A stretch of DNA of 41,789 bases, from NCBI GenBank assembly GCA_919901565.1, contig CAKKPE010000064.1:1-41789 (forward strand), in the 5' to 3' direction. Positions 8,385-33,917 of this stretch are shown here, piece by piece; positions within the stretch are counted from its first letter, which is position 1; the number at the start of each line of letters is the position of its first letter. The notes beneath the pieces are model-generated. The model was not told the DNA's origin, ran no database searches, and saw only the letters and a program-made list of their open reading frames with translations. The position numbers and the translations under genes are program-made. This DNA comes from a bacterium (GTDB lineage Bacteria; CG2-30-53-67).

Positions 8385-8387
8385 CTG

Positions 8388-12458: not shown

Positions 12459-12467
12459 TAGGGATAT

Positions 12468-14468: not shown

Positions 14469-14518
14469 CTTATCTGGGTTCTTGTGAGCCTGTTATTTTT
14501 TTTCTGTTATTTTTTTTC

Positions 14519-14546: not shown

Positions 14547-14578
14547 AACAAGTTACAATAGATAGAAAGGGCATTCAA

Positions 14579-14779
14579 ATGAAAGAAAAGATCCACCCCA
14601 AATATGACCCGACGACCATCACCTGCACGTGCGGGAATGTCATCGAAACGCGGTCCACGCAAAAGGATCTGAAGATCGAGATCTGTTCAAGCTGCCACCC
14701 GTTCTACACGGGACAGCAGAAGCTTGTGGACTCGGAAGGCCGTGTCGAAAAATTCAGGAAGAAATACGGTATAAAGTAA
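14579..14779 (+). CDS. rpmE: 50S ribosomal protein L31
   Basis: 66-aa ribosomal protein L31 of the zinc-binding (C+) type, with CTCG (CxC) near residues 16-18 and CSSC (CxxC) near 37-40. The N-terminus MKEKIHPKY and the segment [20 protein letters not shown] are diagnostic. It binds the large subunit at the central protuberance and bridges to the small subunit. It has its own promoter and heads the conserved rpmE-DUF1385-prfA-prmC neighbourhood, although a MITE-like insertion now separates it from the next gene. Complete. Confidence 0.97.
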
Positions 14780-14796
14780 AAGATCCCATGATTGAT

Positions 14797-14944
14797 GGCG
14801 TTGTAAAAAGTCCTCGGATGGGACGGCAAAGCAAAAAGCCCCGGATGCAAGGAGCGCAAGTTCTGAGGAATGAGGCGTACTCACAACTAAGCTGCAATGA
14901 CGAAGGACGCAGCGGAACGCAGCAGATGGACTTTTTACCAAGCC
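14797..14944. mobile_element. MITE-like element with 17-bp terminal inverted repeats
   Basis: The left end (14797-14813) and the reverse complement of the right end (14928-14944) agree at 15 of 17 positions, centred on GTAAAAAGTCC. The 148-bp interior has no coding capacity and contains further dyads. Palindromic elements with ends of this type (TAAAAAGTCC) are, to my knowledge, widespread in deltaproteobacterial genomes. CATGAT occurs on both sides (14787-14792 and 14947-14952) and could be a target duplication, though it does not abut the ends exactly. The rest of 14945-15193 holds only the hairpin at 15053. Confidence 0.6.
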
Positions 14945-18295: not shown

Positions 18296-19231
18296 ATGGA
18301 TAACCGTCTGAAAAAAACAATGGAGTCCCCTAATCTCTGGTTTGTTGCCGCAACCGTTGGGACCCTGTTTTTCTTTTCTTCCCTGATCCCTATGATCATC
18401 TCGCCGGTCTTCCTTGTCCTGACCACATGGAAATACGGGCACAGGATGGGACTTGCGGTCGCAGCATTGAGCACTTTTTCTGTGCTTTTTCTTTTTAATC
18501 TGCCGGTAGCGGCTTTTTTCTTCACACAGTTTGTGATGGTAGGCATCCTTCTGGGCGACGGTCTCAGGCGCAAGACACCTCCCCTGAACCTTCTTTTGAC
18601 CACGACCCTGATCTCCACGCTGCTGGTAATGGCCGCCGGGGCGGGCTATCTCTATCATGGCCCCGTCCCTTTTTCCGAGATGATTCAACAGGGAGGCGAG
18701 GCCGTGAAACTTGCCTTCGAAGAAAGCGTCAAACGCCTGCATCCCGACCCGGAGGAACTGGCGCGTTACCGGGAAAGCATGATCGCCATGCTCTCCTTTG
18801 TTAAAAACGCCTTTCCCGCTCTTCTCTTTATCAATGCTTTTTCCATTGTCTACCTAAGCCTTCTGATCCCCCTGAATTATGCAGACCGGCTCGGCCTTGA
18901 CCGGTCCCATATTCCTCCGCTCAAAGAGACCTCCATCCCCTTTGCCTGGGTCTGGGGGCTGATCCTGTCCGGCATGGTCTATCTTTTCCATGTCCCTTAT
19001 CTGAAATGGGTGGGGCTGAACGTGGCGCTGATCTTTTTGCTGGCCTACCTGATGCAGGGATATGCGATCCTTTCTTTTTATCTGAACAAGACGCGTCTTC
19101 CCGGAATCTTTAAAGGCGTCCTTTACATCACCTGCCTGATCAACATATCCCTGATGATCGCACTCTGCGCGGTCGGCCTTTTCGATACCTGGTTTAATTT
19201 CCGCAAAAGGTTTCCAGTCCCGCGTGTCTAA
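18296..19231 (+). CDS. DUF2232 (YybS-like) polytopic membrane protein
   Basis: 311-aa protein with about eight hydrophobic segments across its length and few charged loops. A moderately hydrophilic stretch (about 125-165) contains EESVKRLHPDPEELARYRE. The pattern, length and the C-terminal segment (LAYLMQGYAILSFYLNK) fit the DUF2232/YybS family, whose function is unknown. It starts 38 bp after prmC and probably shares its transcript. Confidence 0.72.
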   Translation: MDNRLKKTMESPNLWFVAATVGTLFFFSSLIPMIISPVFLVLTTWKYGHRMGLAVAALSTFSVLFLFNLPVAAFFFTQFVMVGILLGDGLRRKTPPLNLLLTTTLISTLLVMAAGAGYLYHGPVPFSEMIQQGGEAVKLAFEESVKRLHPDPEELARYRESMIAMLSFVKNAFPALLFINAFSIVYLSLLIPLNYADRLGLDRSHIPPLKETSIPFAWVWGLILSGMVYLFHVPYLKWVGLNVALIFLLAYLMQGYAILSFYLNKTRLPGIFKGVLYITCLINISLMIALCAVGLFDTWFNFRKRFPVPRV

Positions 19232-19271
19232 GAATAGTCTCGCGTCAACCTTGCAGAGTCTTTTGGTGTCA

Positions 19272-19354
19272 CCCCCTCATCCTAACCTTCTCCCCATAGG
19301 GGAGAAGGGATGCTTGAACCTCCTTTCCCCTTGGGGAGGACTGAGGTGAGGGGG
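19272..19354. repeat. palindromic CCCCTCATCC...GGTGAGGGGG repeat, copy B (inverted relative to copy A)
   Basis: CCCCCTCATCCTAACCTTCT, then CCCC-ATA-GGGGAGAAGG, ending GGTGAGGGGG. It is the reverse complement arrangement of copy A, so the prmC-DUF2232 pair is bracketed by inverted copies. The remainder of 19232-19485 shows no gene. Confidence 0.75.
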
Positions 19355-19485
19355 AAAATGGGATACGTCATTTTACACGTGACACGACACTATCCCTTCC
19401 ACAACTTCATGGGGAATACCGATTCCGGCAGGGGCTCCTATCCATTTCCCGGACACAGGGGCGGATTTTTGGGTCTACAATTCTT

Positions 19486-19514
19486 TTGACTCCCCCGCTG
19501 TTTTTCGATACTAT
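19486..19514 (+). promoter_or_regulatory. sigma-70 promoter of the HprK/PEPCK-like gene
   Basis: TTGACT (19486-19491), a 17-bp spacer and TACTAT (19509-19514). The predicted start near 19521 gives a leader of about 97 nt. This makes the in-frame TTG at 19486 implausible as a translation start. Confidence 0.55.
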
Positions 19515-19617
19515 CGCAGACACACAAAAAAGGGGGAAACGGGGGCCCATCTTCCCGGATAGGCCTTGTTTCCGCCATGATATTGAATACTTATTCGGCT
19601 ATTGGAAAGGCTCCGTG

Positions 19618-21396
19618 ATGATCGTCCAAAAGAAACCCTACGTGATCACCCGTGGAAAGGTGATTATCGACTACTCGGCACTCTACTGCGACACCACGGA
19701 AAAACTGCTGAGGAGCGAGCTCTTCAGCGACGTGGTCGATCGTTTCATAAAAAAGATCGCCTCCAAATCCACCTCCAGCTTCGCCTTCCTGATGGAGACC
19801 CTGCCGTGGCTCAAAAGAGATGAGCTCACCGAATACATCGTGAACCTCTTCCGGCTCCTGTCCAGCCACTCGGCCGAGGAGATCGCTGCCATGAACAAGG
19901 AGTATCGCCACATCTTTTCCGAGAAACTACTGTTCCATGATTTTATTGAAGAACTCTATCAGTTCTGGCGGCGCTTCGAGCGCTTTATCTATATCGAGGC
20001 TCCGGAACGATCTCACTATTCCAGGAGCAGCATACATCACGCCCAGTTTATCAAAGCCAACGAGGAATTCAAGAACCTGGTCCTCTTCGTCTACCGCCGT
20101 GTGAGCGAAAATTTGCTGGGCCAGAATCCCAGGGTCTACCGGCAGCTCCCCTCGGGAGCCAATATGGGGATGCTCCTCGAAAAGGTCGAATGGTCCTGTC
20201 CCGAAGGGTACCGCCACCTCAAAGAGATCCCTTTCATCCGGCTTTCCCTGGTGGAGCCGCCCCTCATCCTCTACCCCGTGATGAACAAGCGCAAAGGGAG
20301 TTTTAAAGAGATCCATTCCGTCACCCCCGACATGCTCGATCTGAAACCCGAAGAGTGGTACTGTTTCCCTGCCAGGGTCGGCCCCCTGACCGCGTTCATC
20401 TATTTTCATCAGGATTTCATCTCACTCGGCCTCTCCCTGATCAATCTCTTCGAAATCGCGGACTACGACGAGATCGATGGAAAGAAGCCCGAACTCATGC
20501 TCCTCTTCGGCCTGAGCGGCCCTCTTCAGGAGGATACGGTCTTCTTCGAGGACAACAAGAGCGGAATCCTGATCGGCCTGGTCAAACATTCGGAGGAAAT
20601 GGACTACTTCGGCTATTTCAAGAAGATGATCCTGACCCTGCACAACATCGCCATGCTCAAGAGAAATCGGCTGCCGCTGCACGGCGCCATGGTTTATCTC
20701 AAACTCAAGGAAGGCCAGAGAGGCAATGTGATCATCGTCGGCGACAGCGGGGCGGGCAAGTCCGAAACCCTGGAGGCCTTACGCGGATTGGCCGACGAAT
20801 ATATCTGCGAAATGAGGATCATCTTCGACGACATGGGCTCCATCGGCGTGAACAGCAAGAAGAAGATCGTCGGCTACGGGACCGAGATCGGCGCTTTTGT
20901 CCGGCTCGATGATCTGGAGCCCGGGTACGCCTATGTGGAAATCGACCGGAGTATCTTCATGAATCCCGACCGGACGAACGCGCGGCTGATCATTCCCATC
21001 ACCCCTTATCACCACATCGTCAAGGGCTACCCCGTCGACATGGTCCTCTATGCCAACAACTACGAACAGATCACCGCCGAGCACCCGGCCATTGAATTCT
21101 TCTCCTCACCCGGCGAAGCCTTCTCGGTCTTCAGGAGCGGGGCGCGCCTGGCCAAGGGGACCACGGACGAGAAAGGGCTGGTTCATACCTACTTTGCAAA
21201 TCCCTTCGGGGCCGTGCAGCGAAAAGAAGAGCATGAGAAGTGCGCCTCGGAATATTTTGAAAAGATGTTCCAGTCCGGCGTACGCGTCGGCCAGATCCGG
21301 ACCCGCCTCGGCATCGGCGGCTTTGAACAGAACGGCCCCAGGGAAGCCGCATTGGAACTATTCAAGATCATCCAGAGGATGACCCCTGAGGAGTAA
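19618..21396 (+). CDS. HprK/PEP-carboxykinase-like P-loop protein
   Basis: 592-aa protein of no firmly named function. Residues about 1-340 are an uncharacterised, largely helical and basic region. The C-terminal part has a P-loop GDSGAGKS (375-382) preceded by LPLHGAMVYL and followed by a DDMGSIG acidic motif. This order resembles HPr kinase/phosphorylase and PEP carboxykinase, which share a P-loop fold. The GxSGxGKSE form is closest to HprK. The ATG at 19618 has GGAAAGG seven nt upstream and follows a good promoter. Substrate unknown; it could phosphorylate a protein or a small molecule. It is not a canonical PckA because the length and flanking motifs differ. Confidence 0.6.
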   Translation: MIVQKKPYVITRGKVIIDYSALYCDTTEKLLRSELFSDVVDRFIKKIASKSTSSFAFLMETLPWLKRDELTEYIVNLFRLLSSHSAEEIAAMNKEYRHIFSEKLLFHDFIEELYQFWRRFERFIYIEAPERSHYSRSSIHHAQFIKANEEFKNLVLFVYRRVSENLLGQNPRVYRQLPSGANMGMLLEKVEWSCPEGYRHLKEIPFIRLSLVEPPLILYPVMNKRKGSFKEIHSVTPDMLDLKPEEWYCFPARVGPLTAFIYFHQDFISLGLSLINLFEIADYDEIDGKKPELMLLFGLSGPLQEDTVFFEDNKSGILIGLVKHSEEMDYFGYFKKMILTLHNIAMLKRNRLPLHGAMVYLKLKEGQRGNVIIVGDSGAGKSETLEALRGLADEYICEMRIIFDDMGSIGVNSKKKIVGYGTEIGAFVRLDDLEPGYAYVEIDRSIFMNPDRTNARLIIPITPYHHIVKGYPVDMVLYANNYEQITAEHPAIEFFSSPGEAFSVFRSGARLAKGTTDEKGLVHTYFANPFGAVQRKEEHEKCASEYFEKMFQSGVRVGQIRTRLGIGGFEQNGPREAALELFKIIQRMTPEE

Positions 21397-21452
21397 GGGT
21401 ATATCCTCATACAGGTTAGCATCAAGAACCCCCCGGGATGCAACCACGTTTT

Positions 21453-21842
21453 TCAGATTTCAGTGATATCCAGACCTCTTCGCTTTATCGCGCCTCTTTC
21501 CATAAATTTAAGAAATGAAGAACGGAGCATGTCGCTCATCAGGGCCTTTTTTACCGGAGGGATCTTCAGAAAGCCTCCGACAAAACCGCGCATGAATTCA
21601 TGGGTCATGCTTTGCGGATTGTCGAAGAGCTGGTTCTGAAGGGTCCCTTTTCCCAGAGATTTTTGAATGCGGTCGAACCCGGAGAGGCCGAACGGCATCC
21701 GCACAACCAGATCGGCTTCCTCAGTCGTGTAGAGCTCCTTGAGGATGGCGCGCAGCCGTTCATTCCATGGAGCCCTCATCGGCATATTGTCGAGCTTGCT
21801 GCCGAGTTTCCGGTAAATATCCTTGCCATTCATATGCCCCAT
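21453..21842 (-). CDS. hypothetical protein, possible truncated N-terminal domain of an Fe-S protein
   Basis: 129 aa from the ATG at 21842, which has AAGGA eight nt upstream; an in-frame ATG lies at 21833. The first 70 residues (IYRKLGSKLDN..., LRAILKELYTTEEADLVVRM) resemble the helical leader found before the ferredoxin module of some deltaproteobacterial 4Fe-4S proteins. No cysteine motif follows. The C-terminal half (about 70-129) is helical and basic, with a hydrophobic patch FMRGFVGGFLKIPP. It may be a remnant or an independent small protein. It is convergent with the HprK-like gene, 56 bp away. Confidence 0.5.
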   Translation of the reverse strand: MGHMNGKDIYRKLGSKLDNMPMRAPWNERLRAILKELYTTEEADLVVRMPFGLSGFDRIQKSLGKGTLQNQLFDNPQSMTHEFMRGFVGGFLKIPPVKKALMSDMLRSSFLKFMERGAIKRRGLDITEI

Positions 21843-21859
21843 GATCGGATTCCTTCTGA

Positions 21860-21905
21860 ATCGGCCACGAAGCCGCCAAGGCACGAAGAATGAAAAATCA
21901 AAATC
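21860..21905. repeat. dispersed CTTCGTG intergenic repeat, copy 2
   Basis: CGGCCACGAAGCCGCCAAGG followed by CACGAAGAATGAAAAATC. It shares its core with the reverse complement of 10521-10548, and its AT-rich tail (21885-21904) matches 10186-10205 with one mismatch. It marks the junction between housekeeping genes and the defence island. Confidence 0.5.
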
Positions 21906-21911
21906 TTGAGT

Positions 21912-22832
21912 CTACAGTCCAAGGCCCATCCTTAGCTTTTCCAAAGACTCCTCGTACTTGTTTCTATCCATCTTCTGAATATTCATCAACTTCCATTGAA
22001 TAGCGGGCAGTTTATCTATCCCTTCTCTTCCAATGAGTTCCCATTCAGGTTGTCCTTGTTTCACAGAAAAGAGGAACGCCCTTTCATTATCCGTCAGTTC
22101 CTTCTTTAAAATTGTGATGAAGCTTTCTCTTGCTGTAATCAACTCATGGTACTGAACCGGATCCGCAGTCAACCCCACGAACTCCTTTTCAAAGATTTGT
22201 CGCATATCCTTCAGGGTAGGCTCAATCAACTCGTTCATGGGGCGGTCATGACTTGCAAGATATACGACAAAGGCCTTCCGTATCTCCTCTGTGATTCCCT
22301 CATTCTCCATCAGGATTTTGATATCAAAGATATCCCTGGGATGCTGACGATCCAATGCCGCACAAATCTTGCTCCCATACAAGTCGGCCATAGAGAGCGT
22401 TTGTATGGAAGTGGAAAGCTCAAAAAGTTCTTCGGCCTTTTCCGAAAGGTCACGCTCCTCACAAGGGAACACAGAACCGCGAACGACCTGGTTAGGCTCA
22501 ATCTTGATCTGAACATGCTGATTCCTAACAATCAATTTCACAGTCCGTTGCGATCCTTGCGTATTGGCTTCATGTACTCTTGAACCGGGAATCGAATCTC
22601 TGACGGCGGCGGCAATACGCTTGAGGGCATCTTCGATATTTTCCAGGGTTCTTTCACGAGATTCCAGAGGAAGGTACGTCAGATCTATGTCCACAGAGAG
22701 TCTTGGCATATTCCGCACAAAAAGATTTATTGCGCTTCCGCCTTTCAGTGCAAAACACCTTTCCGCTGCCACATGAGGAATAACACGCAGCATGAGTTCC
22801 GCCTGCTTGAAAAATGGATTGTTTTTGTTCAT
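21912..22832 (-). CDS. AbiEii/AbiGii-family nucleotidyltransferase toxin (system 1)
   Basis: 306-aa toxin of the AbiE type IV toxin-antitoxin and abortive-infection family. The nucleotidyltransferase signature KGGSAINLF (30-38) is followed by the metal-binding pair D48/D50 in SVDIDLTYL. A later conserved block (HPRDIFDIKIL, near residue 170) completes the active-site motifs. AbiEii proteins inhibit growth by transferring nucleotides to cellular RNA substrates such as tRNA. The start is 8 bp after the stop of the AbiEi gene, in the usual antitoxin-first order. All catalytic motifs are intact, unlike the second copy at 32800-33640. Confidence 0.93.
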   Translation of the reverse strand: MNKNNPFFKQAELMLRVIPHVAAERCFALKGGSAINLFVRNMPRLSVDIDLTYLPLESRERTLENIEDALKRIAAAVRDSIPGSRVHEANTQGSQRTVKLIVRNQHVQIKIEPNQVVRGSVFPCEERDLSEKAEELFELSTSIQTLSMADLYGSKICAALDRQHPRDIFDIKILMENEGITEEIRKAFVVYLASHDRPMNELIEPTLKDMRQIFEKEFVGLTADPVQYHELITARESFITILKKELTDNERAFLFSVKQGQPEWELIGREGIDKLPAIQWKLMNIQKMDRNKYEESLEKLRMGLGL

Positions 22833-22840
22833 GTCGTAGT

Positions 22841-23614
22841 TTATCTCGAGAGGTCCACCGGAACGGAGATCCTATATTTCGGATCCAAACGCCCCCCTGG
22901 CACGATCATGCGTTTACCTTTTCCAAAATCTATCTTTGACAAGTCCAGCTTTTTGACCCAGGCATGATTGCAAACATCAGCAAGATACATGAACAGGCGT
23001 TTCACTTTCACGGACCCACAGGCTTCCAGCAATGTCTGGACCAGTCCAGGGCGTAACGTTGTCAGCCCCTCCATAAGCAGTCTCGCTTCCTCAAAGGACT
23101 CCCCCCTCGGCACATAATAAAGGACCTCCATGATCGCTCTCTCCGGAGAGGACAATCGTATTGAATAGGCCCCCATTTCTTTGATGGTCATTCCAGGATT
23201 GCCTTGGGGAGGAAAGAGCTTGGTCGTTGTGTACCGGAGTTTCACGCCCCAGTCATGTTTCCTGAACCACACAGGAAGCTTCTCTCCTGGAGAACCGAAG
23301 AGTGATACCAACGCGCCTTTTCCAAGGGGCAGATAATGGGCGTATCCCTGAATCTGCAGCGCTGTTTTGCCGCCCCCATGAATGGAAAGCCCCAACTGTT
23401 TCTGAACCGCATAGAGGCCCCCGGTCCAGTCCACAGAATCCCCTTCACGGATGAACGCACCTCGGCCCAAACGATCAAGCCAGGCTGTCTTCCGGTAGGC
23501 ATCAACCAACTGGCGATAGACACCGCGTTCACTCAACCAGGAGTGAACAGCAACCGTTCCTTGAGGCCAAGCCCTGAGGATCTGGTTTAATTTACTCCTA
23601 TTTTGACTATTCAT
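22841..23614 (-). CDS. AbiEi-type antitoxin and transcriptional autoregulator (system 1)
   Basis: 257-aa protein with an N-terminal winged-helix DNA-binding region (about 5-60, including GTVAVHSWLSERGVYRQLVD). A C-terminal AbiEi-like domain (about 75-257) contains LSSPERAIMEVLYYV, the conserved SxPERAxxE block. AbiEi proteins repress their own operon and counteract AbiEii. The ATG at 23614 is preferred; a TTG three codons earlier (23623) is possible, and neither has a clear Shine-Dalgarno. One operator overlaps this start and another covers the promoter, matching the two-site autoregulation known for AbiE loci. Confidence 0.9.
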   Translation of the reverse strand: MNSQNRSKLNQILRAWPQGTVAVHSWLSERGVYRQLVDAYRKTAWLDRLGRGAFIREGDSVDWTGGLYAVQKQLGLSIHGGGKTALQIQGYAHYLPLGKGALVSLFGSPGEKLPVWFRKHDWGVKLRYTTTKLFPPQGNPGMTIKEMGAYSIRLSSPERAIMEVLYYVPRGESFEEARLLMEGLTTLRPGLVQTLLEACGSVKVKRLFMYLADVCNHAWVKKLDLSKIDFGKGKRMIVPGGRLDPKYRISVPVDLSR

Positions 23615-23627
23615 AATAGACAAAATA
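23599..23627. promoter_or_regulatory. AbiE system 1 operator, start-codon proximal
   Basis: 12-bp arms TATTTTGACTAT (23599-23610) and ATAGACAAAATA (23616-23627) around a 5-bp centre; 11 of 12 positions are complementary. It overlaps the start codon of abiEi. Confidence 0.75.
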
Positions 23628-23666
23628 ACATATTATTAAACCAATGGCAAGGAGTAGTTTATTATA

Positions 23667-23695
23667 ATTCTATTTTGTCAATAATGAATTGTCAA
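23667..23695 (-). promoter_or_regulatory. sigma-70 promoter of AbiE system 1
   Basis: On the minus strand a perfect TTGACA (23695-23690) and TAGAAT (23672-23667) are separated by 17 bp. The predicted start is near 23660. Both hexamers lie in or touch the distal operator, so repressor binding would block polymerase. The remaining gap to 23860 shows nothing else. Confidence 0.75.
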
Positions 23696-23699
23696 ACAA
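23671..23699. promoter_or_regulatory. AbiE system 1 operator, promoter proximal
   Basis: The same 12-5-12 layout as the first operator: TATTTTGTCAAT (23671-23682) and ATTGTCAAACAA (23688-23699), with 9 of 12 positions complementary. Operator centres are 72 bp apart, about seven helical turns, which would suit cooperative binding. Confidence 0.65.
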
Positions 23700-23859
23700 C
23701 ATCCAATATAAACCCCAGCATGTCCTCTTCACAATGGATGTCGGATTGGATATGAAGGATTTTATTCATCTCGTTCACATCTCAAGTTGGGGCACTATTT
23801 CAGACCGTATTAATGACCAAGATCGGATTTCATTCCCTTCTCAACCCTTTCTTTGTCAA

Positions 23860-26800
23860 TTATTGAAGAGCCGTGTTAAGGACAAATGATTTAATACACA
23901 AGCCTTCTTGGGATAGATCAGCAGCCTGGATGTCGTATTGCTTTTGTGCTTCTTCGAAACTAAGTTTTGGAGCCTTTCCTTTTCTATAATCTGTGGTATC
24001 CCACTTGTCGCAGTTAAACCATCCGACAAGGTACAAGCCATACTTACAATCGTTATCTTTTAAGTATCTGTCTGCCAGTTGGGTCTGCATTGCCTCAGGG
24101 AGATCTTGGTTCCAACATCCCTTCACTTCGATAATGACTTTTACAATATCATAGTCTTCTTGTTTGAACTCCTTCTTGATAGCATCTACGTGAATATCTG
24201 TTTTTTGGCCCCGTCGGATTTCAACTTCTCGATTCACAACAATTCCCCTTTTCTTGAGATCCTCGTCCAGATGTATCTTCACATAGTCAGAGAGTCTGTT
24301 CTCATCCTTAGGTATATATATCTTCTTTTTATTCTCATTGATCTCGTTCCATAGGTATATGGCGGCAGGTGTTGTACCTTGTAACTTTTGCTCTAAACGT
24401 CCTAAAGACTCGAGTACTATGTCAAGCAGTTGAATCCCGCTCTGGACGAAGCGTGTATGTTGGTTACTCGCGAACTTGAGAATTACTTCCGGATTTGGAG
24501 GTACCCATGTTAGCCTACGAGTGATATTCTGGGCCTCAAGTAACATCCATTTCAACCACTTCTTATCTGGAAATTCTCGTGAAATTATTTTTAATGCTTC
24601 ACATGCTTGATTAGTGCCTCGATCTCTGAGATAGTTCAGGATAGCATCTCGAAATCTTTTCACACTTTCGTTGCGACTAACACGGGAGAGTCTTTTTGGT
24701 TTTGGATCCTCAGCATATGGATATTGATAAACAAGCCGAATGTACAGATCAGCTATTTGGCTCTCCAAAAGTGTCTTTCCTATCTTTTCAGCGATTTCCT
24801 TAGAATCATGAGCAATCTCTGAAATCACTTCATATCCAAACTCCGGATCTTCCTGAATTGCCTGCCAAACAACTGCCCACCCAGCATCTTCTGCATGCAT
24901 CATCAGTGCTTTCGCCGCAGCCATTGCCCTTTGGCGCGCAATTTCAGTTGTGGGCAAAGGTGATTGAAGAAGAGATTCGACAAACTTTTGAGCCTCCTCT
25001 GCCTGATGATCAAGCAGATCACGAATCAGGCAATCCAGTGACTTAGGGTGCATATTTTCATCTTTTGCTTTTATCAAAAGTGCATTAGCCAGTTTGTCAT
25101 CCCAACAAGATTGGATCCTTTGTGTGATGAAAATGCACTTGTGATCCTTATTCTCTTTGTCAATTAAAGTAAGCAAAGTACTGATGATTTCATCAGGAGC
25201 ATTCTGATAGGTGATCTTCATTAGTTGATCACGAGACTTTTCATTGTCAGTGTGACTCGATTCAGGATAGGCAAGAATAATCGGGGCCCACCTCTTCCAG
25301 CCCTCGCTGGGAATCTGCTTCAAAAAATCAGGGGCCTCTCTTAGGAGTAGAATCAACCCCCTATACCCGGCACCTGCGGGGCGGTAAAAAGTATTCGTGC
25401 CCAACCACTTGTCCGCCTCAGGGTCATTACCAAGCATAAACTCTTTCGCCGCTTTGATGATCCGCTCTTTTGTTTCAAGGTTAGCATTCAACCATCCGGG
25501 AAGCGTTGTTAGGTCTGCTTCAAATTCATCACCATAATATAGACTATTGGGCTTAAGGGTCATTTCCATGTTCAATTGCCACCATGCATCAAGTTTGCCG
25601 GATTCAATCTTTCCCAAAAGGTTGGAAATTCTTTCTGAAGGTGAGGGTTTGAGTTGAGGGCGTTTCTGTCTGTGCTGCGTGAGAATCTTCTGTTGCTCAA
25701 GATATTCGTCCTTTATTCTTTGTGCCTCTGGTGAGTCTAAGCGAATTGGATCGAGCCAAGGTTTAAAGGAGTGGTAGAGTACCCGATTTGTTTGACAGGC
25801 CAAAACAATAGCGTCCGCTTGATTTGCCTCACTCCAGTCAAAAGCTCTCAGAATCAGTTCCGCCCACGCAGTCTGTGATTCCTGGGGCTCAGTGGATTGT
25901 ATACGGCCAATCATCCACAATACGTCCCGAGAAGTAACCAGAGGAGGTTCGGAATGGAGTAACCGAATAGAGTCCTTCTCTGGAGATGAAACAATGGGAA
26001 GTATTGCTTCGATAATCAGCCTGCGTTTCTTATCGTTCTTGTTCCATTCATCCAAGAATGTCTGCTCATCATTATGATCAAATATTGGATCATAATGTTT
26101 CAACCTTGAAAAGACCGCTTTTGCATATGCCTTCAAATCACCTGAGGATTCCAGGCATTCCCATCCTTTCATCATTATCTTGTCCATAAGCTTCCTGAAA
26201 CAATAGGGAAGCTCATGCCGACGTACCTGTTCCTCAACCCATATGAAAGCCCTGGGTAGATCTTCTGGTTTAAGATCGTCCGCAAGATCGAAAGCTACGA
26301 ATGAATAATACCGACCTATGAAGTTTTCCCTTTTGGGGGGCGTTATGGCATCGAAAAGTTCTTCCACTCCGATATACTTGGGCCACAGGGCTTGTAGAGC
26401 ATATCCTTTCAGCTGGTCCTCAGGGTCATCTCCCACACCACCTGCTGCAATCGGCTTCAATCTTGGTATTGCCTCTTCGTCCCCGATCCTGTCCACTGCA
26501 TAGATTGCCTCTTCACGTAATGACTGGTGTTGAGATACATCCAGAGCAACATTCATTAGCTCATCCACAAGCGTTTTTAGTCTGCATTCCCCCGCGATTT
26601 CTATAGCCGCTCTTCTTGCAAAAAAACTCTTCTTGTCGTCAGCAATGTAGGCTTGAATCTGCTCAGCCAGACCGGAATGATACAATTTCTTGTAATAGCG
26701 GTGCATTCCAAGATCCTGACCCAGCAATCTTTCCTCGTCAAAGAGTCTGAGCAGATTCTCGACCAATTGCACACGATCTTTTTTGTCAGCCATTACCACA

Positions 26801-28074
26801 TCACTGCGGATCAATACGTCGGAATTCCCTCTCATGGTTTCCCGGAATACACCGTGATCCATACTTGCCAACCAAGCCGCCGTCTCATGAAGCTGAGGGA
26901 CAAGTCTCCCGTCAGGATCATCAGGGTGTATGATCAGACTCATCATTTGAGAAAGCGTCATATTGTGCTGCACCAAATATCTAGCGGCGAGAAATTCAGC
27001 ATATGTCTGATGGGCCCAGCCCATACGGTTTGATCCACGGGAAGAAAACAATCCCGTATTCAGTGTTTCTCTTATCGCCTCGTCATTCACCTGGAATTGA
27101 GAGCCATTAATGCACTCATGCCCACCGCATAATTCTCGGATTGTTGTATCCTCATTTGGAAGGTCGCCCATGTCTACGCCCGTTGAGATAGCGTATCGAT
27201 TACAAAACACCGTGACAGCAGCAATACGAGACGCCACTGCCATACGTTGGTCGGGCGTATAATTACCGATCAAGCGTGCTTCTCGACGGCTTACACTCGT
27301 CTCTTCACACAATAGGCGGCAACCATCAAGATAAAGGGCTGATTTAGTCGATGGGAACTCGCCTTTTCGCTTGAAGGTATTCAAAAGAAAGTCCAGCGTA
27401 ACGGGTTTGATTGATAGAGGCACGACCTCCATTCTATCTACCTCATGAAGGAAGGCATCTGCATCCAAGCCATTGGTCTTTGCAGCTTCTAATACATCGA
27501 TACGGCGAAGGGGAACCAACTCAAATGCCTTGAAGTTATCTTTGCCCCAAAGGCGAGTCAATCCTTCTTCCAGAGAGGGAGGCCATTCAAAAGTACGGCA
27601 GGCTATGCGAAGATATAATCGCTCCGTGGGGTATTTCCTGAATTCTTCGGACAGCAAAGCAGTTAGGGTATCAATTCTTAGCAGACATTCGTCCAGACTG
27701 TCTAAGAAAAGGTGAAGTCGATGGTTGTTATTTACCCAGGAAAGAAAGGTTTGGTCTCCAAACAAAGTGCGTACCAATCTATCCTCGCTTCCAAATTGCC
27801 GAAGATCAAACCAAAGAACCTGATCTCTCCCCGACTTAATCTTTGCACCATAATTTTTTCTTTCTGCCGACATCGCATGGGTTTTGCCTATTCCAGGTTC
27901 ACCGAGCAACGCCAAGCAAGGAACTTCAGCTATAGATTCAAAAGTGACAACATCCGGATTGCCATATATTCCCCATTTGGAATCAGGATCGGATAAGAAT
28001 CCGCCATCCGACAGATTGATATTCCCAGTTCTTGGGCACCAGAATCGCTTCCAGTTGTAATTTTTATTAGGCAT
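23860..28074 (-). CDS. NACHT/STAND NTPase with HEAT-like repeats and C-terminal PD-(D/E)XK nuclease
   Basis: 1404-aa three-part protein, predicted to be a phage-sensing or stress-sensing switch with a nuclease effector. A short N-terminal segment precedes a STAND ATPase with Walker A GEPGIGKT (58-65) and the NACHT-type Walker B LFLDSLDE (122-129, with D125 and the D128-E129 pair). The long middle (about 430-1230) is helical and HEAT-like, for example LREEAIYAVDRIGDEEAIPRL; it is the expected ligand sensor. The C-terminal domain has D1293 in KTDIHVDA and E1316-V-K1318 in VIIEVKG, the D-(X)n-ExK pattern of restriction-like nucleases. It starts 44 bp after the metallophosphoesterase-NACHT gene on the same strand, so the two probably form an operon. 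The effector sits at the C-terminus, whereas Avs proteins carry it at the N-terminus. Confidence 0.85.
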   Translation of the reverse strand: MPNKNYNWKRFWCPRTGNINLSDGGFLSDPDSKWGIYGNPDVVTFESIAEVPCLALLGEPGIGKTHAMSAERKNYGAKIKSGRDQVLWFDLRQFGSEDRLVRTLFGDQTFLSWVNNNHRLHLFLDSLDECLLRIDTLTALLSEEFRKYPTERLYLRIACRTFEWPPSLEEGLTRLWGKDNFKAFELVPLRRIDVLEAAKTNGLDADAFLHEVDRMEVVPLSIKPVTLDFLLNTFKRKGEFPSTKSALYLDGCRLLCEETSVSRREARLIGNYTPDQRMAVASRIAAVTVFCNRYAISTGVDMGDLPNEDTTIRELCGGHECINGSQFQVNDEAIRETLNTGLFSSRGSNRMGWAHQTYAEFLAARYLVQHNMTLSQMMSLIIHPDDPDGRLVPQLHETAAWLASMDHGVFRETMRGNSDVLIRSDVVMADKKDRVQLVENLLRLFDEERLLGQDLGMHRYYKKLYHSGLAEQIQAYIADDKKSFFARRAAIEIAGECRLKTLVDELMNVALDVSQHQSLREEAIYAVDRIGDEEAIPRLKPIAAGGVGDDPEDQLKGYALQALWPKYIGVEELFDAITPPKRENFIGRYYSFVAFDLADDLKPEDLPRAFIWVEEQVRRHELPYCFRKLMDKIMMKGWECLESSGDLKAYAKAVFSRLKHYDPIFDHNDEQTFLDEWNKNDKKRRLIIEAILPIVSSPEKDSIRLLHSEPPLVTSRDVLWMIGRIQSTEPQESQTAWAELILRAFDWSEANQADAIVLACQTNRVLYHSFKPWLDPIRLDSPEAQRIKDEYLEQQKILTQHRQKRPQLKPSPSERISNLLGKIESGKLDAWWQLNMEMTLKPNSLYYGDEFEADLTTLPGWLNANLETKERIIKAAKEFMLGNDPEADKWLGTNTFYRPAGAGYRGLILLLREAPDFLKQIPSEGWKRWAPIILAYPESSHTDNEKSRDQLMKITYQNAPDEIISTLLTLIDKENKDHKCIFITQRIQSCWDDKLANALLIKAKDENMHPKSLDCLIRDLLDHQAEEAQKFVESLLQSPLPTTEIARQRAMAAAKALMMHAEDAGWAVVWQAIQEDPEFGYEVISEIAHDSKEIAEKIGKTLLESQIADLYIRLVYQYPYAEDPKPKRLSRVSRNESVKRFRDAILNYLRDRGTNQACEALKIISREFPDKKWLKWMLLEAQNITRRLTWVPPNPEVILKFASNQHTRFVQSGIQLLDIVLESLGRLEQKLQGTTPAAIYLWNEINENKKKIYIPKDENRLSDYVKIHLDEDLKKRGIVVNREVEIRRGQKTDIHVDAIKKEFKQEDYDIVKVIIEVKGCWNQDLPEAMQTQLADRYLKDNDCKYGLYLVGWFNCDKWDTTDYRKGKAPKLSFEEAQKQYDIQAADLSQEGLCIKSFVLNTALQ

Positions 28075-28118
28075 TATTATTCAGATACTATGGTCACGAT
28101 TTCCTAAAGGTTAAAAGC

Positions 28119-31100
28119 TTAAACATCCCTGGCACAACGAAAACCCACATCGACGCTCCTGAGATAGGGCATGCCCCTGTCGCGGTACGCGCAACGACAG
28201 AGGTAACCTAGATCGCTCCAAGAGCCGCCGCGCAGAACTTTATACTTCTTTTTCTCGTTATCATACCAGATCTCGGTCCATTCCCAGACATTCCCGGCCA
28301 TATCAAGGCAGCCGTAAGGGCTTTGGCCCTGGGGAAATTGGCCCACATCTGTGGTCCTTCCTGTCCCGCTCTCATAGGAATTACATTTTTTAGAATCAAA
28401 TGCATTCCCCCAGGGGTAGGTCTGCCCCTGGGTCCCACGGGCCGCCTTCTCCCACTCCTGCTCATCAGGAAGTCGCTTGCCGGCCCAGTCTGCATAGGCT
28501 TTGGCGCCGTACCAGGTAACATATGTAACCGGATGTCTATCGAACCGATCTTCAACTATGTAGCCTTTCCCGTGACTCTTGATCCTGCAATCGCTGCCTT
28601 CTAAATTAATCCATCTCTTCAGATCTTCGGATTCTGGCTTTACGGTCATCAAGAACTTGCAGTACTGCTCATTGGTGACCGGATATTTGTCCATATAAAA
28701 CGCAGGCAGGTCAATGACCCTCTGGGGCTTTTCGTCACTGCGTGCATCCGGGTCATCTTCCTTACTCCCGAATAGAAAGGTGCCTGCCGGAATTAGCACC
28801 ATCTCGGCGCCATCTACGGGGCTGGTGAAGATCTCCGGCGCCTCTTCTTTGGGTTTCTCAATCCCCGCGGTCGCATCTAAAGACTCCAGGGCAACCCACG
28901 ACGAGGATACCACTACGCTGTCTATGCCGGTTACCGCCTGTTTCAAGGCTTCAATCACCCTAGGTCCGCCCAGGGCCGTCAAGGCCCGAATGACATTGGA
29001 CCGGGTCTCCGAGGCAAGCTGATCGTCCTTCAGGGCTTCAATCAGAATATTGACGGGCTTGGTGATGGAATCCTTTACCGAATCCATGAGCAGGTCAATC
29101 TCTTTCTTGAAGATCTCTTTTTCTATCAGGGCCTTGGTGAAGTCTTCAATCATAGAAGGGTTATCCAGGGCCAGGCAGAGGCGGATGACCTCTTTCCACC
29201 ATTTATCTCCATACTTTGAGAGGAGGAGATCCATCTTTCCCAGGTTCCGGATTTGTTCGGCGGCCAGGTATTCCTGGAAGCTGAGATGGGTGAATCCGTA
29301 TTCGCTCTCGCTGTATCCCATGAAGATCCCGCTTCGGTCTCGGATGTTCAGCAGAAATTCCTCAGGATTGATCTCTGATTTTCCAATCTCTTCAAGTGGT
29401 CCGGCAATAATCTCCCGAATTTCCTCCATGGGCGCAGACCTTCGCTCATCTTTTTCATGAAGCCACAGGGCCAGGGGCTGGAGGACCTTTCTTGCCTGTC
29501 CTGCGGTGAGTAAAACCTCCAAACCTCTATCCTTGTCCCATCTTTCCAGGAGAACGTTTGTACACTCTTCGTAAAGATCCACCCTCCGCTCAGGCAGGCT
29601 CCCCCGGTCCCGCTGGACCAGTGCCATGATCTGCAGGAGCAAGGGGTTGACTGCGAGTTTCTTCAGGTCCTCAGAGTCTCGGATTTTCTCATAGAGGTTC
29701 AGGGCTTGTTCATGCCCCTTATTTCGCCAATGGTCCTCATCCTCGATGGGATGAAGCGCCGCCTCCACGGCCTCGAACCAGTGGACCAGGAATACTTCCA
29801 CCTCTGGCAGGGTAAAATTCCTGATGGCCAGTTCTATATGATTCGCCGTGAGCCTGCTCTCCTCCCGGTAGCCGGCAAAGCGGGATGTGACCACGAATCG
29901 TGTACGGGGGAATTGCCCCAAGGCCTTATCGATCCACTTGCAGGTCAGAATCCTTGCCCGCTCGTTGGCGACCTCGTCCAGCCCGTCGAGGAGGATGATG
30001 CCTTTGCCGCTCTCAAGAAGCTTTTTCAGGACACTCTCGGAAACCGAACGACCCTTTAATGAACAAGCCTCCATGATGAATGGGAGAAAGCCCTGCTTTT
30101 TAGGTTCTTTTAACTCTCGCAAAGGAGCAAAGAATGGGATGAGATCCTGCTCAAGTCCGAGCCTCTCCCTGCCTCTGTCCTGGATCAGCATGACAAGAAT
30201 ATATTTTAAAAGGGTGGTCTTGCCTGAGCCCGGATTGCCCAGGATGACCAGATCCTTGGTCTTGAGGCGCGCCGAGACCTCAAAGGCCTTTCTGAGGTCC
30301 ATGATAGGGAGTTGCTCCCTGTCTTGTCTCTCCTCCAGGATCTGCCTTTCTTGAACCGTCAGACCATGATCTCGGAGATGCATGCGGGCCTGCATCTGCA
30401 CATAGACCTTTTCCAGTTCAATAGGGACCCTCAAGGTAGTCTCGAAACCCTGTGTGGGGAGGTGGCGGTGTTCATTCAGCGCAGCCTGTTTGTAGTTCTC
30501 AAAGATACGCTCTTGCTTAATAGAGCGCTGGATATTAGCGACCGAAGTTTTGATTCCGGGCATGTCAAAGACGCACTGACCGTCCTTGCCTTTTTCACCA
30601 TCCAGGACCCATTGTCTATCTTTGTCAACGAACGTTCTGAAGTCCAGCCGGATCTTATGGATGGCCCAGTTCAGGGTAATGTATTGAAACCGGTTGGGGT
30701 AGGTGCTCTCTTCATAGGCGCAGCCGGCCTGAAAGCCATAGATCTCTCCAACCAGGTCCCTGGTGTATCCGCCTTCCGCATCATGGAGGTGTCCTGAAAG
30801 GGCGATACAGCCGTTCATATGTTTCCGGCAGATCCACCGGTCCTTGGGCCAGAGCCATTCCAGTGGGTGGTGGAAGAGATGGACCGTGAGATCATGGGCT
30901 CCATTTGTTCTCAGCTCCTCAACGGCCTTTACGAGCTGGTATTCGCCGATGGCAATCTTCTCCCTGTCATCGGAGACTCTACACATCCACGCCGAATTCA
31001 GGCCTACAAGGCCGATCCTCTTTTTGCACTCAGCCGTGTAAGAATAGATAAAAGGAACAAGCCGAGGGTTATTGCTTTTTAAATGGGGATAATGCTTCTC

Positions 31101-31496
31101 CACAAAAGCGAAATAGTCATCCATGCCTTTGAGGAGATCATTCCTGTAGTTTTCCAGTTCCTTGTTGAGGTCTTTCATCTCTTTGTAGGAAGGAATATCT
31201 CCAGGCCTGTATATTTTGCGGTAAACATCGTGATTGCCGGGGACAACAAAGAGCCTCTGGTCCGGAAGGGCAAGAGCTGCGAGGAGGTCATCAAAGAAAG
31301 GCTTGGCAAGGTCATACTCTTTCTTGATCCCAGTCTTGGCAATGTCGCCGGTAACGATCACGAGTTCGGGATTGAAGCCGGATTTGCGGTCTTCACGGAC
31401 GCGGGCGATCAACGGATTGAGCACAACGGAACGGTCGAAATCGTCTTCCGTGCTGACATGGAGATCGGAGATGTGAAGGATTTGCAGTTGGTCCAA
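28119..31496 (-). CDS. metallophosphoesterase - NACHT - HEAT - FGE/C-type-lectin-like protein
   Basis: 1125-aa multidomain protein. Residues 1-290 are a calcineurin-like metallophosphoesterase with all metal motifs: D11-x-H13, G50-D51, G87-N-H-D90, H209/H210 and G235-H-L-H238. The NACHT ATPase has Walker A GNPGSGKTT (420-428) and Walker B IILLDGLDE (500-508). Helical, HEAT-like repeats follow (about 750-880). Residues about 885-1125 form a formylglycine-generating-enzyme/SUMF1-like fold ending VGFRCA. Only C1100 and C1102 lie near the expected catalytic cysteines, so a sensing role is likelier than formylglycine synthesis. The start is TTG at 31496, with GAGGGGG directly upstream and the fold beginning at residue 5. 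It is the first gene of a probable two-gene operon flanked by AbiE modules. Confidence 0.88.
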   Translation of the reverse strand: MDQLQILHISDLHVSTEDDFDRSVVLNPLIARVREDRKSGFNPELVIVTGDIAKTGIKKEYDLAKPFFDDLLAALALPDQRLFVVPGNHDVYRKIYRPGDIPSYKEMKDLNKELENYRNDLLKGMDDYFAFVEKHYPHLKSNNPRLVPFIYSYTAECKKRIGLVGLNSAWMCRVSDDREKIAIGEYQLVKAVEELRTNGAHDLTVHLFHHPLEWLWPKDRWICRKHMNGCIALSGHLHDAEGGYTRDLVGEIYGFQAGCAYEESTYPNRFQYITLNWAIHKIRLDFRTFVDKDRQWVLDGEKGKDGQCVFDMPGIKTSVANIQRSIKQERIFENYKQAALNEHRHLPTQGFETTLRVPIELEKVYVQMQARMHLRDHGLTVQERQILEERQDREQLPIMDLRKAFEVSARLKTKDLVILGNPGSGKTTLLKYILVMLIQDRGRERLGLEQDLIPFFAPLRELKEPKKQGFLPFIMEACSLKGRSVSESVLKKLLESGKGIILLDGLDEVANERARILTCKWIDKALGQFPRTRFVVTSRFAGYREESRLTANHIELAIRNFTLPEVEVFLVHWFEAVEAALHPIEDEDHWRNKGHEQALNLYEKIRDSEDLKKLAVNPLLLQIMALVQRDRGSLPERRVDLYEECTNVLLERWDKDRGLEVLLTAGQARKVLQPLALWLHEKDERRSAPMEEIREIIAGPLEEIGKSEINPEEFLLNIRDRSGIFMGYSESEYGFTHLSFQEYLAAEQIRNLGKMDLLLSKYGDKWWKEVIRLCLALDNPSMIEDFTKALIEKEIFKKEIDLLMDSVKDSITKPVNILIEALKDDQLASETRSNVIRALTALGGPRVIEALKQAVTGIDSVVVSSSWVALESLDATAGIEKPKEEAPEIFTSPVDGAEMVLIPAGTFLFGSKEDDPDARSDEKPQRVIDLPAFYMDKYPVTNEQYCKFLMTVKPESEDLKRWINLEGSDCRIKSHGKGYIVEDRFDRHPVTYVTWYGAKAYADWAGKRLPDEQEWEKAARGTQGQTYPWGNAFDSKKCNSYESGTGRTTDVGQFPQGQSPYGCLDMAGNVWEWTEIWYDNEKKKYKVLRGGSWSDLGYLCRCAYRDRGMPYLRSVDVGFRCARDV

Positions 31497-31637
31497 GGCC
31501 CCCTCTTAAAAAACGGTGTCTGGTAGAATTCACAATGACACCCCATTCAAGGCGGTTGTTCCTTTGCGTTCTATCCCATGAATCTGTAGTCTCTGCAGGC
31601 GGCGATCCTGAATCATCAGCCCACGAAAGTAGGAGCA

Positions 31638-31666
31638 ATCGTACATTAGCAGGGATAAAGTTTCAA
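31638..31666 (-). promoter_or_regulatory. candidate sigma-70 promoter of the NACHT gene pair
   Basis: On the minus strand TTGAAA (31666-31661) and TACGAT (31643-31638) are separated by 17 bp. The predicted start near 31631 leaves a leader of about 135 nt. The surrounding gap 31497-31796 holds no supportable gene. Confidence 0.4.
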
Positions 31667-31796
31667 GCGAAAACTGGGAGAAGCCCCAATTGCGGGATCT
31701 CCCTCTCAATTCGGATTCTTGATAGCGACGGTTGAGATTCTTTTATAGATAAACCGGTCACGGATTTTATTGTGCCTACTTCAACTGTACGTTATA

Positions 31797-31826
31797 ACTG
31801 TATAACGTGTATACACGTTATACAGT
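31797..31826. promoter_or_regulatory. 30-bp perfect palindrome, AbiE system 2 operator O1
   Basis: Fifteen-base arms beginning ACTGTATAACGTGTA are exact reverse complements with no spacer. The central 16 bp AACGTGTATACACGTT are identical to those of the second palindrome at 31877-31908. Centres are 81 bp apart. An extra half-site ACGTTATA lies just to the left (about 31789-31796). Confidence 0.8.
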
Positions 31827-31859
31827 AAATTTGACTATATGTCAAGTTGTTTTTTTAGG

Positions 31860-31888
31860 TTGACATGAAGATAACAAGGTGATAAACG
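31860..31888 (+). promoter_or_regulatory. candidate promoter of AbiE system 2
   Basis: A perfect TTGACA (31860-31865) is followed after 17 bp by a poor -10 (TAAACG, 31883-31888) that lies inside the second palindrome. Repressor bound there would cover the -10 region. Confidence 0.4.
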
Positions 31889-31908
31889 TGTATACACGTT
31901 TATCACCT
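31877..31908. promoter_or_regulatory. 32-bp perfect palindrome, AbiE system 2 operator O2
   Basis: Sixteen-base arms beginning AGGTGATAAACGTGTA are exact reverse complements. It shares the 16-bp core with O1 but has different flanks, and ends 20 bp before the start codon of the antitoxin gene. Confidence 0.82.
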
Positions 31909-31928
31909 AATACCTAATAGGTTCTGAA

Positions 31929-32810
31929 ATGAATACAAAAACTCTTAAAAAGAGGTTCGAGACCCACTTTAAGATGCCGGTGGGACAGCACCAAATGCCC
32001 GCGCATGCTGAGCGCGTCATGGGGGAAACCCGGTACAAGAATGTCAGCAAGTTTATTAGTGTGCTACTAAAAGATGGTATCATCAAGCGATACCGGCTGA
32101 CTGCAAGAAACAACAGAAGTCGTATCTTGTACTGCTCCAGACCTCTTGATGAAATAGATCCCTATGAAAATGCCATGGCAATGTTTCCCGATGGCTATTT
32201 CTGTAATTACTCCTCTATCTATTACCACTCGCTTACTAATCAGGTTCCAAAAACACTTTACATATGTAACGAGACAATATCTGAGAGGCGGAGCAAAGTT
32301 CGAGATATAAGCGATAACGATCTGCGCAGAGCATTTATTAAGCCACGCCGACATACAAGCTGCGTGTTTGATATCACAGGCTATAGCATCGTTGTAGTGG
32401 ACCGAGAAAGAAACTCAGGGCACGGGGTTATTAAGACCCTTGCAACATCGCAGTTGTTGCCAAGGAAGTCACGCGTTACATGCATGGAGCGCGCACTGAT
32501 AGACGCTGTCGTGGCCCCGCACTACAACGGCGGCATTGCAAGCGTGTATGCACATTACAAAGCTGCGCAACGGAGGGCGAATGCCGCCAAGCTTATTGAA
32601 TTATACAAAAAACTGGATTTTGTGTACCCGTATTCTCAAGCCATCGGGTTCCTTCTAGAGAAGGCAAGAATGGCGAAGCATGCAGCTCTTGTTTACAGGG
32701 AGTTTCCACCGAAGCACATCTACTATATAGACCATAACGCAAAAACATCTTGGCGCTATGATAAAAAGTGGAAACTGCACTATCCAGAGGGACTTGTAGA
32801 TGAGGATTGA
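31929..32810 (+). CDS. AbiEi-like antitoxin and transcriptional autoregulator (system 2)
   Basis: 293-aa protein that fits the AbiEi role by position and pattern. An N-terminal winged-helix region (about 8-70, including NVSKFISVLLKDGIIKRYRLT) is expected to bind the two palindromes upstream. The C-terminal part has the conserved block SRVTCMERALIDAVV (about 177-191), equivalent to the S-PERAxxE block of AbiEi. Sequence similarity to the AbiEi of system 1 is low, so the two modules were probably acquired separately. The stop overlaps the toxin start by 11 bp (32800-32810). Base composition is lower in GC than the housekeeping genes. Confidence 0.82.
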   Translation: MNTKTLKKRFETHFKMPVGQHQMPAHAERVMGETRYKNVSKFISVLLKDGIIKRYRLTARNNRSRILYCSRPLDEIDPYENAMAMFPDGYFCNYSSIYYHSLTNQVPKTLYICNETISERRSKVRDISDNDLRRAFIKPRRHTSCVFDITGYSIVVVDRERNSGHGVIKTLATSQLLPRKSRVTCMERALIDAVVAPHYNGGIASVYAHYKAAQRRANAAKLIELYKKLDFVYPYSQAIGFLLEKARMAKHAALVYREFPPKHIYYIDHNAKTSWRYDKKWKLHYPEGLVDED

Positions 32811-33640
32811 AGAAGTAATCACTGAAACGATAATTGCAATATACCAAGATCGGACGGCTGCCGCCTATCTACGCCTGAAAGGTGGGAGTGCAATGCGGTT
32901 GTTCGATGATCTGAAATCCCGGCTGTCTACAGACGCAGACTTCTCAATTTCAAAAGGAATAGAGAACAAAAAAGATTTTTTCAGCGGCATTAAGTCCTCT
33001 ATCGCAAGAAGATTCCAGAAGGTGGGGTTCAATATTATAGACTTTAAATGTGAAAGGAGGCCCAGAAGCCGACGGGCCGATCTTCCGGTCTGGTGGGGCG
33101 GGTGGCAATGTGAATTCAAGCTTGTTGCGTTTGAGCATCGTGGGAAGTCCATAGAAACAATGAGAAGAAATGCTATGGTTCCGGAAGGGGCTGGTTCCCC
33201 AAAGATTCTATTAGAAATCAGTGAATACGAATACTGTGGCAAGAAGCGAGTTAAAACAATCCAACGAGTCAGGATAGCTGGCTACTCGCGGGAGCTGCTT
33301 GTGCTTGAGAAAATGCGGGCCATTTGTCAGCAGCATTCTGACTATAAGTACAGGCTCAGCAAAAACAGAGCGCGACTTTTATGACATATATGAACTAACC
33401 GCTAATACAGACGATAATTTTACGGATAGATGTCAGTCTGATATTGTGAAGGTCTTCCAGGCGAAGAGCGTTCCCTTATCAATCTTATCCGCTTTGTGGG
33501 ATAATACGTTTATAGATGAACAACGACGTGGATTCGATGAGGTAAGAGATACGGTGAGCGGGAATATACAGGAATTTGATGTCTATGTGGAGCACCTGCG
33601 ATTCCTTGCGAGGGAGATTTACCCTGCCGCGGCTAGATAA
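32800..33640 (+). pseudogene. AbiEii-like nucleotidyltransferase toxin (system 2), frameshifted at an A5 run
   Basis: The first frame (32800-33384) has the nucleotidyltransferase motifs LKGGSAMRLF and STDADFSI (DxD) but ends early with NRARLL. The next frame continues with TERDFYDIYELT, the second AbiEii motif block, and runs to 33640. Removing one A from the run at 33361-33365 joins the frames into a 279-aa protein of normal AbiEii length. The break is therefore a single-base insertion, a sequencing error or a slippage switch. As written, the toxin lacks its C-terminal third, while its antitoxin gene is intact. Confidence 0.8.
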
Positions 33641-33681
33641 TATTCGGAAAGTTCTACGCTACCGACAGACAGCAAAGCAAT

Positions 33682-33917
33682 CTACCGTTTGCCCAAAAAC
33701 TCCGTAAACGCCTTCTCCGCCACCGGAAGCGTTCCTCCCGAAAAATTCATCTGCCTTTTGCTGGATCATCTCAATGAGATCCACCGGGAGGTTGAAGGAC
33801 TTGAGCTTGAGCTCCACTCCCCTCTTCGGGCGCCCCACCGGTTTACTGGTTTCATCATCCCTCTGACGGGGCAGAGGTTGGAGAGCACTAAGGTTTTTTT
33901 GTTTTCTCCACGCTCAT
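33682..33917 (-). pseudogene. small ribbon-helix-helix-like gene coupled to priA, with two homopolymer frameshifts
   Basis: An ATG at 33917 overlaps the priA stop as ATGA. Reading on, a frameshift is needed at an A7 run (about 33894-33900) and another at a T5 run (33741-33745 on the plus strand, as AAAAA). With one base removed from each, the frame is open for 77 aa and ends VAEKAFTEFLGKR. The middle reads VGRPKRGVELKLKSFNLPV and then DLIEMIQQKADEF: a basic AT-hook-like GRPKRG followed by a beta strand and helices as in CopG/MetJ-type ribbon-helix-helix proteins. No uninterrupted frame explains this interval. It may be a real gene with sequence errors or a fresh pseudogene. Confidence 0.6.

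Follow-up and report, generated by a model that had tools for sequence, protein, structure and literature searches.

Two adjacent NACHT/STAND proteins in an insertion beside priA: probably separate defence receptors, each from a family that exchanges domains

Here we analysed a 41,789-nucleotide stretch of a bacterial contig (CAKKPE010000064.1, positions 1 to 41,789; hereafter the window) in which two large NACHT/STAND genes lie side by side, the upstream one encoding P2 and the downstream one P1 (Table 1). An earlier note on this DNA had proposed the pair as an undescribed two-protein defence module. The two open reading frames (ORFs) have the coordinates, lengths, strand and spacing given there, and the residues it singled out are correct (K64, D125 and E1316 in P1; K426, D504 and H89 in P2). 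Both also prove to be NACHT/STAND proteins of defence-linked kinds, P1 being EruA-like and P2 carrying a DS-8-like phosphoesterase, in an insertion with two AbiE modules. The pairing itself did not recur in the other genomes tested. We think it probable that P1 and P2 are NLR-like (STAND/NACHT) immune receptors that each act independently as a single protein, adjacent in a defence island with no obligate functional link.

Table 1 Features of the window around P1 and P2.
Feature	Coordinates	Strand	Description
P2	28119..31496	(-)	metallophosphoesterase-NACHT-FGE, 1125 aa, TTG start
P1	23860..28074	(-)	predicted N-terminal NACHT, HEAT-like middle and predicted C-terminal PD-(D/E)XK nuclease, 1404 aa, ATG start
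Gap from P2 stop to P1 ATG	28075..28118	(-)	44 bp, P2 upstream; no terminator-like site in scan
Left AbiEi/AbiEii pair	21912..23623	(-)	canonical toxin-antitoxin pair by Pfam and PADLOC; AbiEi 22841-23623 (AbiEi_3), AbiEii 21912-22832
Right AbiEi-like/AbiEii-like pair	31929..33384	(+)	second, divergent pair with weaker matches; AbiEi-like 31929-32810, short AbiEii-like 32800-33384
Insertion	19232..33913		14.7 kb, between gene 18296-19231 and priA (33914-36361)

The earlier note had read P1 as a NACHT-HEAT-PD-(D/E)XK protein, and this architecture holds, with the middle identified by Pfam and the two ends by structure prediction and conserved residues. In Pfam only HEAT_2 exceeds its cut-off (3.7e-7); two P-loop matches are sub-threshold and NACHT is absent from the matches. 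We built AlphaFold2 models of both ends from alignments of the window protein with genome-derived relatives. The model of amino acids (aa) 1-620 has a mean predicted local distance difference test score (pLDDT) of 91.3 and matches NOD2, NLRP3, NAIP/NLRC4, Avs4 and Avs5 in Foldseek at probability 1.00, with low whole-chain query template modelling (TM) scores of 0.25-0.44; the likeness to Avs4 and Avs5 is a fold match only, in the NACHT/STAND core. For aa 1150-1404 (pLDDT 85) the top fold match is BamHI (probability 0.99, E 2e-3, TM about 0.4), and none of the 629 matches reaches an E value of 0.001. Across 28 aligned P1-family proteins, K64, D125 and D128 are present in every one, D1293 and K1318 in 24 and E1316 in 25; the exceptions are two proteins with a different C-terminus (L070 and L073), one cut by a contig end (L080) and one that ends short (L091). 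Every one of the 24 rows that cover the nuclease region has D1293, E1316, K1318 and Q1332. P1 is thus predicted to begin with a NACHT/STAND NTPase of the NLR-type P-loop fold and to end in a PD-(D/E)XK nuclease, the latter judged from its catalytic residues and fold. PADLOC gave no match to P1, and the sole match in a sequence search of the PDB was an artificial helical protein (E 0.015).

Profile searches of both proteins gave distant matches to known defence families but reached neither equivalog cut-off. P1 aligns with the NCBIfam model of the "NACHT domain-containing antiphage protein EruA" (NF058535) at 284.5 bits, from aa 121-1358 to model positions 71-1277 of 1318, an alignment that takes in most of the C-terminal nuclease region. 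Since the cut-off is 1000, P1 is a distant relative and is rejected as EruA itself; the long colinear similarity into the C-terminal domain does indicate a member of an EruA-like family in the broad sense. A P1 relative, L087, aligns in a similar register (aa 124-1408 to 71-1315), and HyoA (NF058534) is more distant from P1 (139.8 bits; cut-off 1200). In the literature searched we found no paper on the EruA or HyoA proteins, whose names come from NCBIfam alone; the sole other bacterial EruA encountered is an unrelated E. coli regulator. Like P1, bNACHT25 joins a NACHT/STAND core to a PD-(D/E)XK nuclease effector, but its nuclease is N-terminal, and the available text of PMC12169576 gives this layout, opposite to that of P1, as general among bNACHT proteins and STAND NTPases. 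P1, which starts with the NTPase and ends with the nuclease, therefore reverses that order. Our literature search found no paper tying a STAND NTPase with a C-terminal effector to anti-phage activity.

The C-terminal effector of this family appears to be exchangeable. In four relatives (L070, L084, L039 and L073) homology to P1 stops at aa 1186-1207, beyond which the C-terminus is of another kind. Two of these carry a CHAT domain (PF12770; L070 at 1.2e-7 and L084, whose gene is split over ORFs, at 2.5e-11). L039, at 9983-14905 of the Rhizobium plasmid pTiK1_93, joins a P1-family core to a GT4-conflict domain (PF20706, 8.9e-113) and is annotated just as "glycosyltransferase"; the term GT4-conflict was not found in the papers retrieved. 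L073 ends in a hydrophobic segment that, judged by eye, is probably membrane-spanning. A NACHT-HEAT-metacaspase protein of Trichodesmium was described in 2012 (PMC3501461, available in part). A caspase C-terminal to a core of this type therefore has a precedent.

P2 has the metallophosphoesterase-NACHT-FGE architecture that the earlier note assigned to it, with strong Pfam matches for all three domains: Metallophos at aa 5-238 (PF00149, 5.1e-11), NACHT at aa 416-576 (8.4e-15) and FGE-sulfatase at aa 897-1123 (9.9e-62), along with a weak HEAT match at aa 814-865. The NACHT domain carries Walker A K426 and Walker B D504. Judged against the metal-binding motif set of calcineurin-like phosphoesterases, the N-terminal domain is complete (D11/H13 in DLH, GD at 50-51, GNHD at 87-90, HH at 209-210 and GHLH at 235-238), and we predict a DS-8-like phosphoesterase of this class. 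P2 matches the DS-8 model (NF053861) at 130.9 bits over aa 8-283 only, which falls far below the cut-off of 790 and rejects it as a DS-8 equivalog; it also matches DS-9 at 49.5 bits (cut-off 420) and the PADLOC system PDC-S60 at 109.3 bits. DS-8, from DefensePredictor, is a single-protein phosphoesterase-NACHT phage defence in which mutating either domain abolishes protection (PMC13092281, seen in excerpt). With relatives of each protein already named, and with published phage protection for DS-8, "undescribed" was too strong a word for the parts. Like DS-8, P2 places an N-terminal metallophosphoesterase before a STAND/NACHT NTPase in one protein. A closer DS-8 relative on a Klebsiella plasmid (L111) matches the model over aa 5-857 of 869 at 190.2 bits and has nSTAND_NTPase4 with no FGE domain by Pfam, whereas P2 has the PF05729 NACHT and an FGE C-terminus. 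As the match of P2 is limited to the phosphoesterase, P2 would represent a DS-8-type phosphoesterase on a different, NACHT-FGE scaffold.

Among solved structures, the FGE domain of P2 is closest in sequence to SUMF2, followed by CalU17 and EgtB, with true formylglycine-generating enzymes (FGEs) ranking after these. Active enzymes of this kind bind copper through a cysteine pair spaced C-x4-C. In P2 the pair is C1100-R-C1102, or C-x-C, with a 3-residue gap in the alignment against 5nxl, so a binding role for this domain seems more likely than catalysis. Central NACHT/STAND domains with a C-terminal FGE/CLec domain as putative sensor are also the layout of proteins targeted by diversity-generating retroelements (DGRs) in multicellular bacteria, one of which is described with vWA, CLec, phosphodiesterase and NACHT domains (available text of PMC10907252). 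By this parallel, the FGE domain of P2 could be, or have been, hypermutated by a DGR and serve as an adaptive antigen sensor. P2 differs from that target in having no vWA among its Pfam matches, and the window genome (a draft, 97.4% complete in 160 contigs) yielded neither a reverse transcriptase (PF00078) match nor a template repeat matching the final 212 bases of P2, the best other match being 28 bp at 89% (E 0.024). The absence of both makes diversification of P2 unlikely and largely refutes this explanation within the limits of a draft genome; we regard it as extremely improbable.

The NACHT-FGE scaffold is itself found with more than one N-terminus. An N-terminal phosphoesterase is present in P2, in L110:18126-21602, partly in L110:10307-13606, and in a match from the same-family genome G005 that contains a stop. 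A methyltransferase occupies this position in L043:151-3381 (G005), and no N-terminal domain was assigned in L044, L127, L128 (cut by a contig end), L130 or L131. At the G005 locus L043, about 2 kb separate a pair of NACHT-FGE genes (151-3381 and 5403-8522), and the phosphoesterase-like N-terminal stretch of the second is the one broken by the stop.

P1 and P2 lie between the two AbiE modules in the interval adjoining priA. The homologues of its flanking genes are separated by only 25 bp in G002, 23 bp in G004 and 7 bp in G005; in G001, of the same genus, they are about 1.9 kb apart with the interval within one contig, although priA there is split over two contigs. In the window 14.7 kb lie between them, and all that this interval holds (P1, P2, the two AbiE modules and also a 636-aa P-loop protein) is therefore an insertion relative to all four. 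In a fifth member of the family, G003, the 17 kb around priA contain no other ORF matching the window. No repeats were found at the insertion edges, only an 11-bp inverted match, and no integrase was identified among the proteins searched. The earlier note's two AbiE modules are both present, though only the left one is canonical: the right AbiEi was matched by PADLOC alone (2.5e-17) and the right AbiEii is a short protein of 194 aa (PF08843, 1.7e-8). The left pair has its own promoter-like site (23695-23667, 11/12).

Two further observations concern this interval. Directly upstream of the right AbiEi-like gene, between it and the P2 start, are palindromes of 30 and 32 bp, perfect by inspection, that share the core AACGTGTATACACGTT (31804-31819 and 31885-31900). 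This 16-mer occurs at just these two sites across the whole genome, and the palindromes are a probable operator of the second AbiE module. The 636-aa P-loop protein (19486-21396, plus strand) matches PEPCK_ATP, AAA and PADLOC AriA (0.0086) weakly, and has no NCBIfam match at 1e-5.

A rival view takes neither protein to act against phages. In it, P2 would be a signalling or metabolic phosphoesterase joined to an FGE-type enzyme, and P1 would be a nuclease with a housekeeping or plasmid-related role. Elsewhere FGE domains are enzymatic, and the solved matches of the P2 domain include true FGEs; in addition, the genes surrounding two P1 relatives (L071 and L087) do not look like defence genes, and 24 plasmid records match P1, 10 of them over at least 80% of its length. 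Set against these points are the AbiE modules in the same insertion, the long match of P1 to an antiphage model, its NLR/Avs fold matches, the swapping of effectors among its relatives, and both the ranking of SUMF2, CalU17 and EgtB as best matches and the cysteine spacing in the P2 FGE domain. We therefore consider a role outside phage defence unlikely, and both proteins are probably anti-phage, as far as their sequences can indicate.

We next consider the pairing, which the earlier note had taken as the unusual point. Scanning genome contigs with the P1-family alignment gave at least 44 loci. In the neighbour test, for which the window served as positive control and which detects P2-like proteins within BLAST reach only, no accepted P2-like neighbour was found at any of the 44 P1-family loci listed, from named genomes, at six further P1 loci (L037-L042), or on four viral contigs with P1 relatives, one of which has just a 95-aa fragment. 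Conversely, a P1 relative stood beside none of 15 loci resembling part of P2, of which seven have NACHT and FGE, two a phosphoesterase with no FGE match, and six NACHT only. In a sample of 193 genomes, P1 was matched in five and the phosphoesterase-NACHT part of P2 in 13 (an earlier P2 search, swamped by FGE domains, was not used), and both occur as separate proteins in the window's own genome only; one other genome, G054, enters both match lists through the NACHT region of a single protein, with a weak P1 match. A scan of viral contigs with the first 885 aa of P2 gave no match. The immediate neighbours of P1 relatives are heterogeneous. Within the loci compared, a conserved P2-P1 module is thus rejected, and the adjacency most likely results from defence genes having accumulated at a single insertion site beside priA.

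Several points weigh against this conclusion. P2 and P1 are co-directional, and the gap without a terminator-like site, which fits a functional operon, implies that they are probably co-transcribed on a single message. The flanks of some P1 loci are limited by contig ends: across 50 loci, at least 2 kb of upstream sequence was present in 43, and 33 had this minimum on both sides, so that a minority is weakly informative about neighbours. The closest P1 relatives among the matches listed are only 55-63% identical over the best part; the sampled genomes therefore include no immediate relative of the locus, and absence elsewhere leaves room for a lineage-specific pair. A 237-aa neighbour in L071 has a weak match to the NACHT segment (E 7e-4, covering segment aa 149-225), which we discounted as P2-like since its start resembles a radical-SAM enzyme by eye. 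At L095, a match to FGE alone lies a few kb from the P1 relative. Large ORFs with a Walker A motif near P1 relatives could also be hidden partners. By Pfam, eight of these comprise a helicase-PLD protein, an ABC transporter, an SbcC-like protein, a UvrD/DEAD helicase, a conjugation coupling protein, Lon, and two without an informative match (L075, and L068, where a BrxC match is sub-threshold). Outside this set of eight, such ORFs also lie near L071, L092, L039, L040 and L042.

If the two proteins did form a two-receptor module, P2 would act as lectin-fold sensor and phosphoesterase and P1 as nuclease executor, for example with P2 altering a nucleotide signal by which P1 is gated, as in the sensor/helper NLR pairs of plants. 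Besides the close, same-strand arrangement, their domain sets are complementary, the same-family genome G005 has its own two neighbouring NACHT-FGE genes, and duplicated CLec-STAND target genes are known in DGR loci (available text of PMC10907252). The neighbour counts from both sides, the single genome in 193 with both proteins, and the full sensor-NTPase-effector layout of both P1 and P2 speak against such a module, which we consider decidedly unlikely. A bolder version would place P1 in an inverted-polarity NLR family, NTPase first and an exchangeable PD-(D/E)XK nuclease, CHAT protease, GT4-conflict glycosyltransferase or membrane segment last, which in this lineage came to be co-transcribed behind a lectin-fold-sensing phosphoesterase NLR, giving a bacterial sensor/helper pair in which P2 detects and P1 executes; this we hold to be very unlikely.

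Some P1 relatives do have close neighbours of other kinds. In the distant relatives L099, L100 and L109, a same-strand upstream gene of 417-431 aa with a GPRQTGKT P-loop near its start overlaps the P1 relative or lies 2 bp from it. This gene is not P2, and it is a possible recurring partner in that subfamily. L144, on an IMG/VR contig classed as viral, encodes a P1 relative with 37% identity (7980-12203) whose neighbouring ORFs are 67 and 3 bp away.

As two independent receptors, P1 and P2 would each work alone. In P1, the HEAT-like region may sense a product of infection, after which the N-terminal NACHT domain would bind ATP and oligomerise; the C-terminal PD-(D/E)XK domains gathered in this way could then cut DNA, leading to cell death or destruction of phage DNA. 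In P2, the C-terminal FGE/C-type-lectin-fold domain would be the sensor, a role proposed for this fold in CLec-STAND proteins (available text of PMC10907252), the central NACHT domain would oligomerise, and the N-terminal metallophosphoesterase may hydrolyse a nucleotide or phosphodiester, as proposed for DS-8.

The pair itself looks ordinary, being two STAND defences in an island, and the modular exchange in both families is more interesting than their pairing. P2 shows that a NACHT-FGE scaffold, too, can carry a DS-8-type phosphoesterase, and no DGR machinery was detected with it here. In the P1/EruA-like family the C-terminal effector is exchanged near one point, and an NLR therefore need not have its killer domain at the N-terminus; this inverted-polarity family is the part worth following. 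Both offer a direct way to test what is sensed by FGE/CLec domains and which phosphate ester the phosphoesterase hydrolyses.

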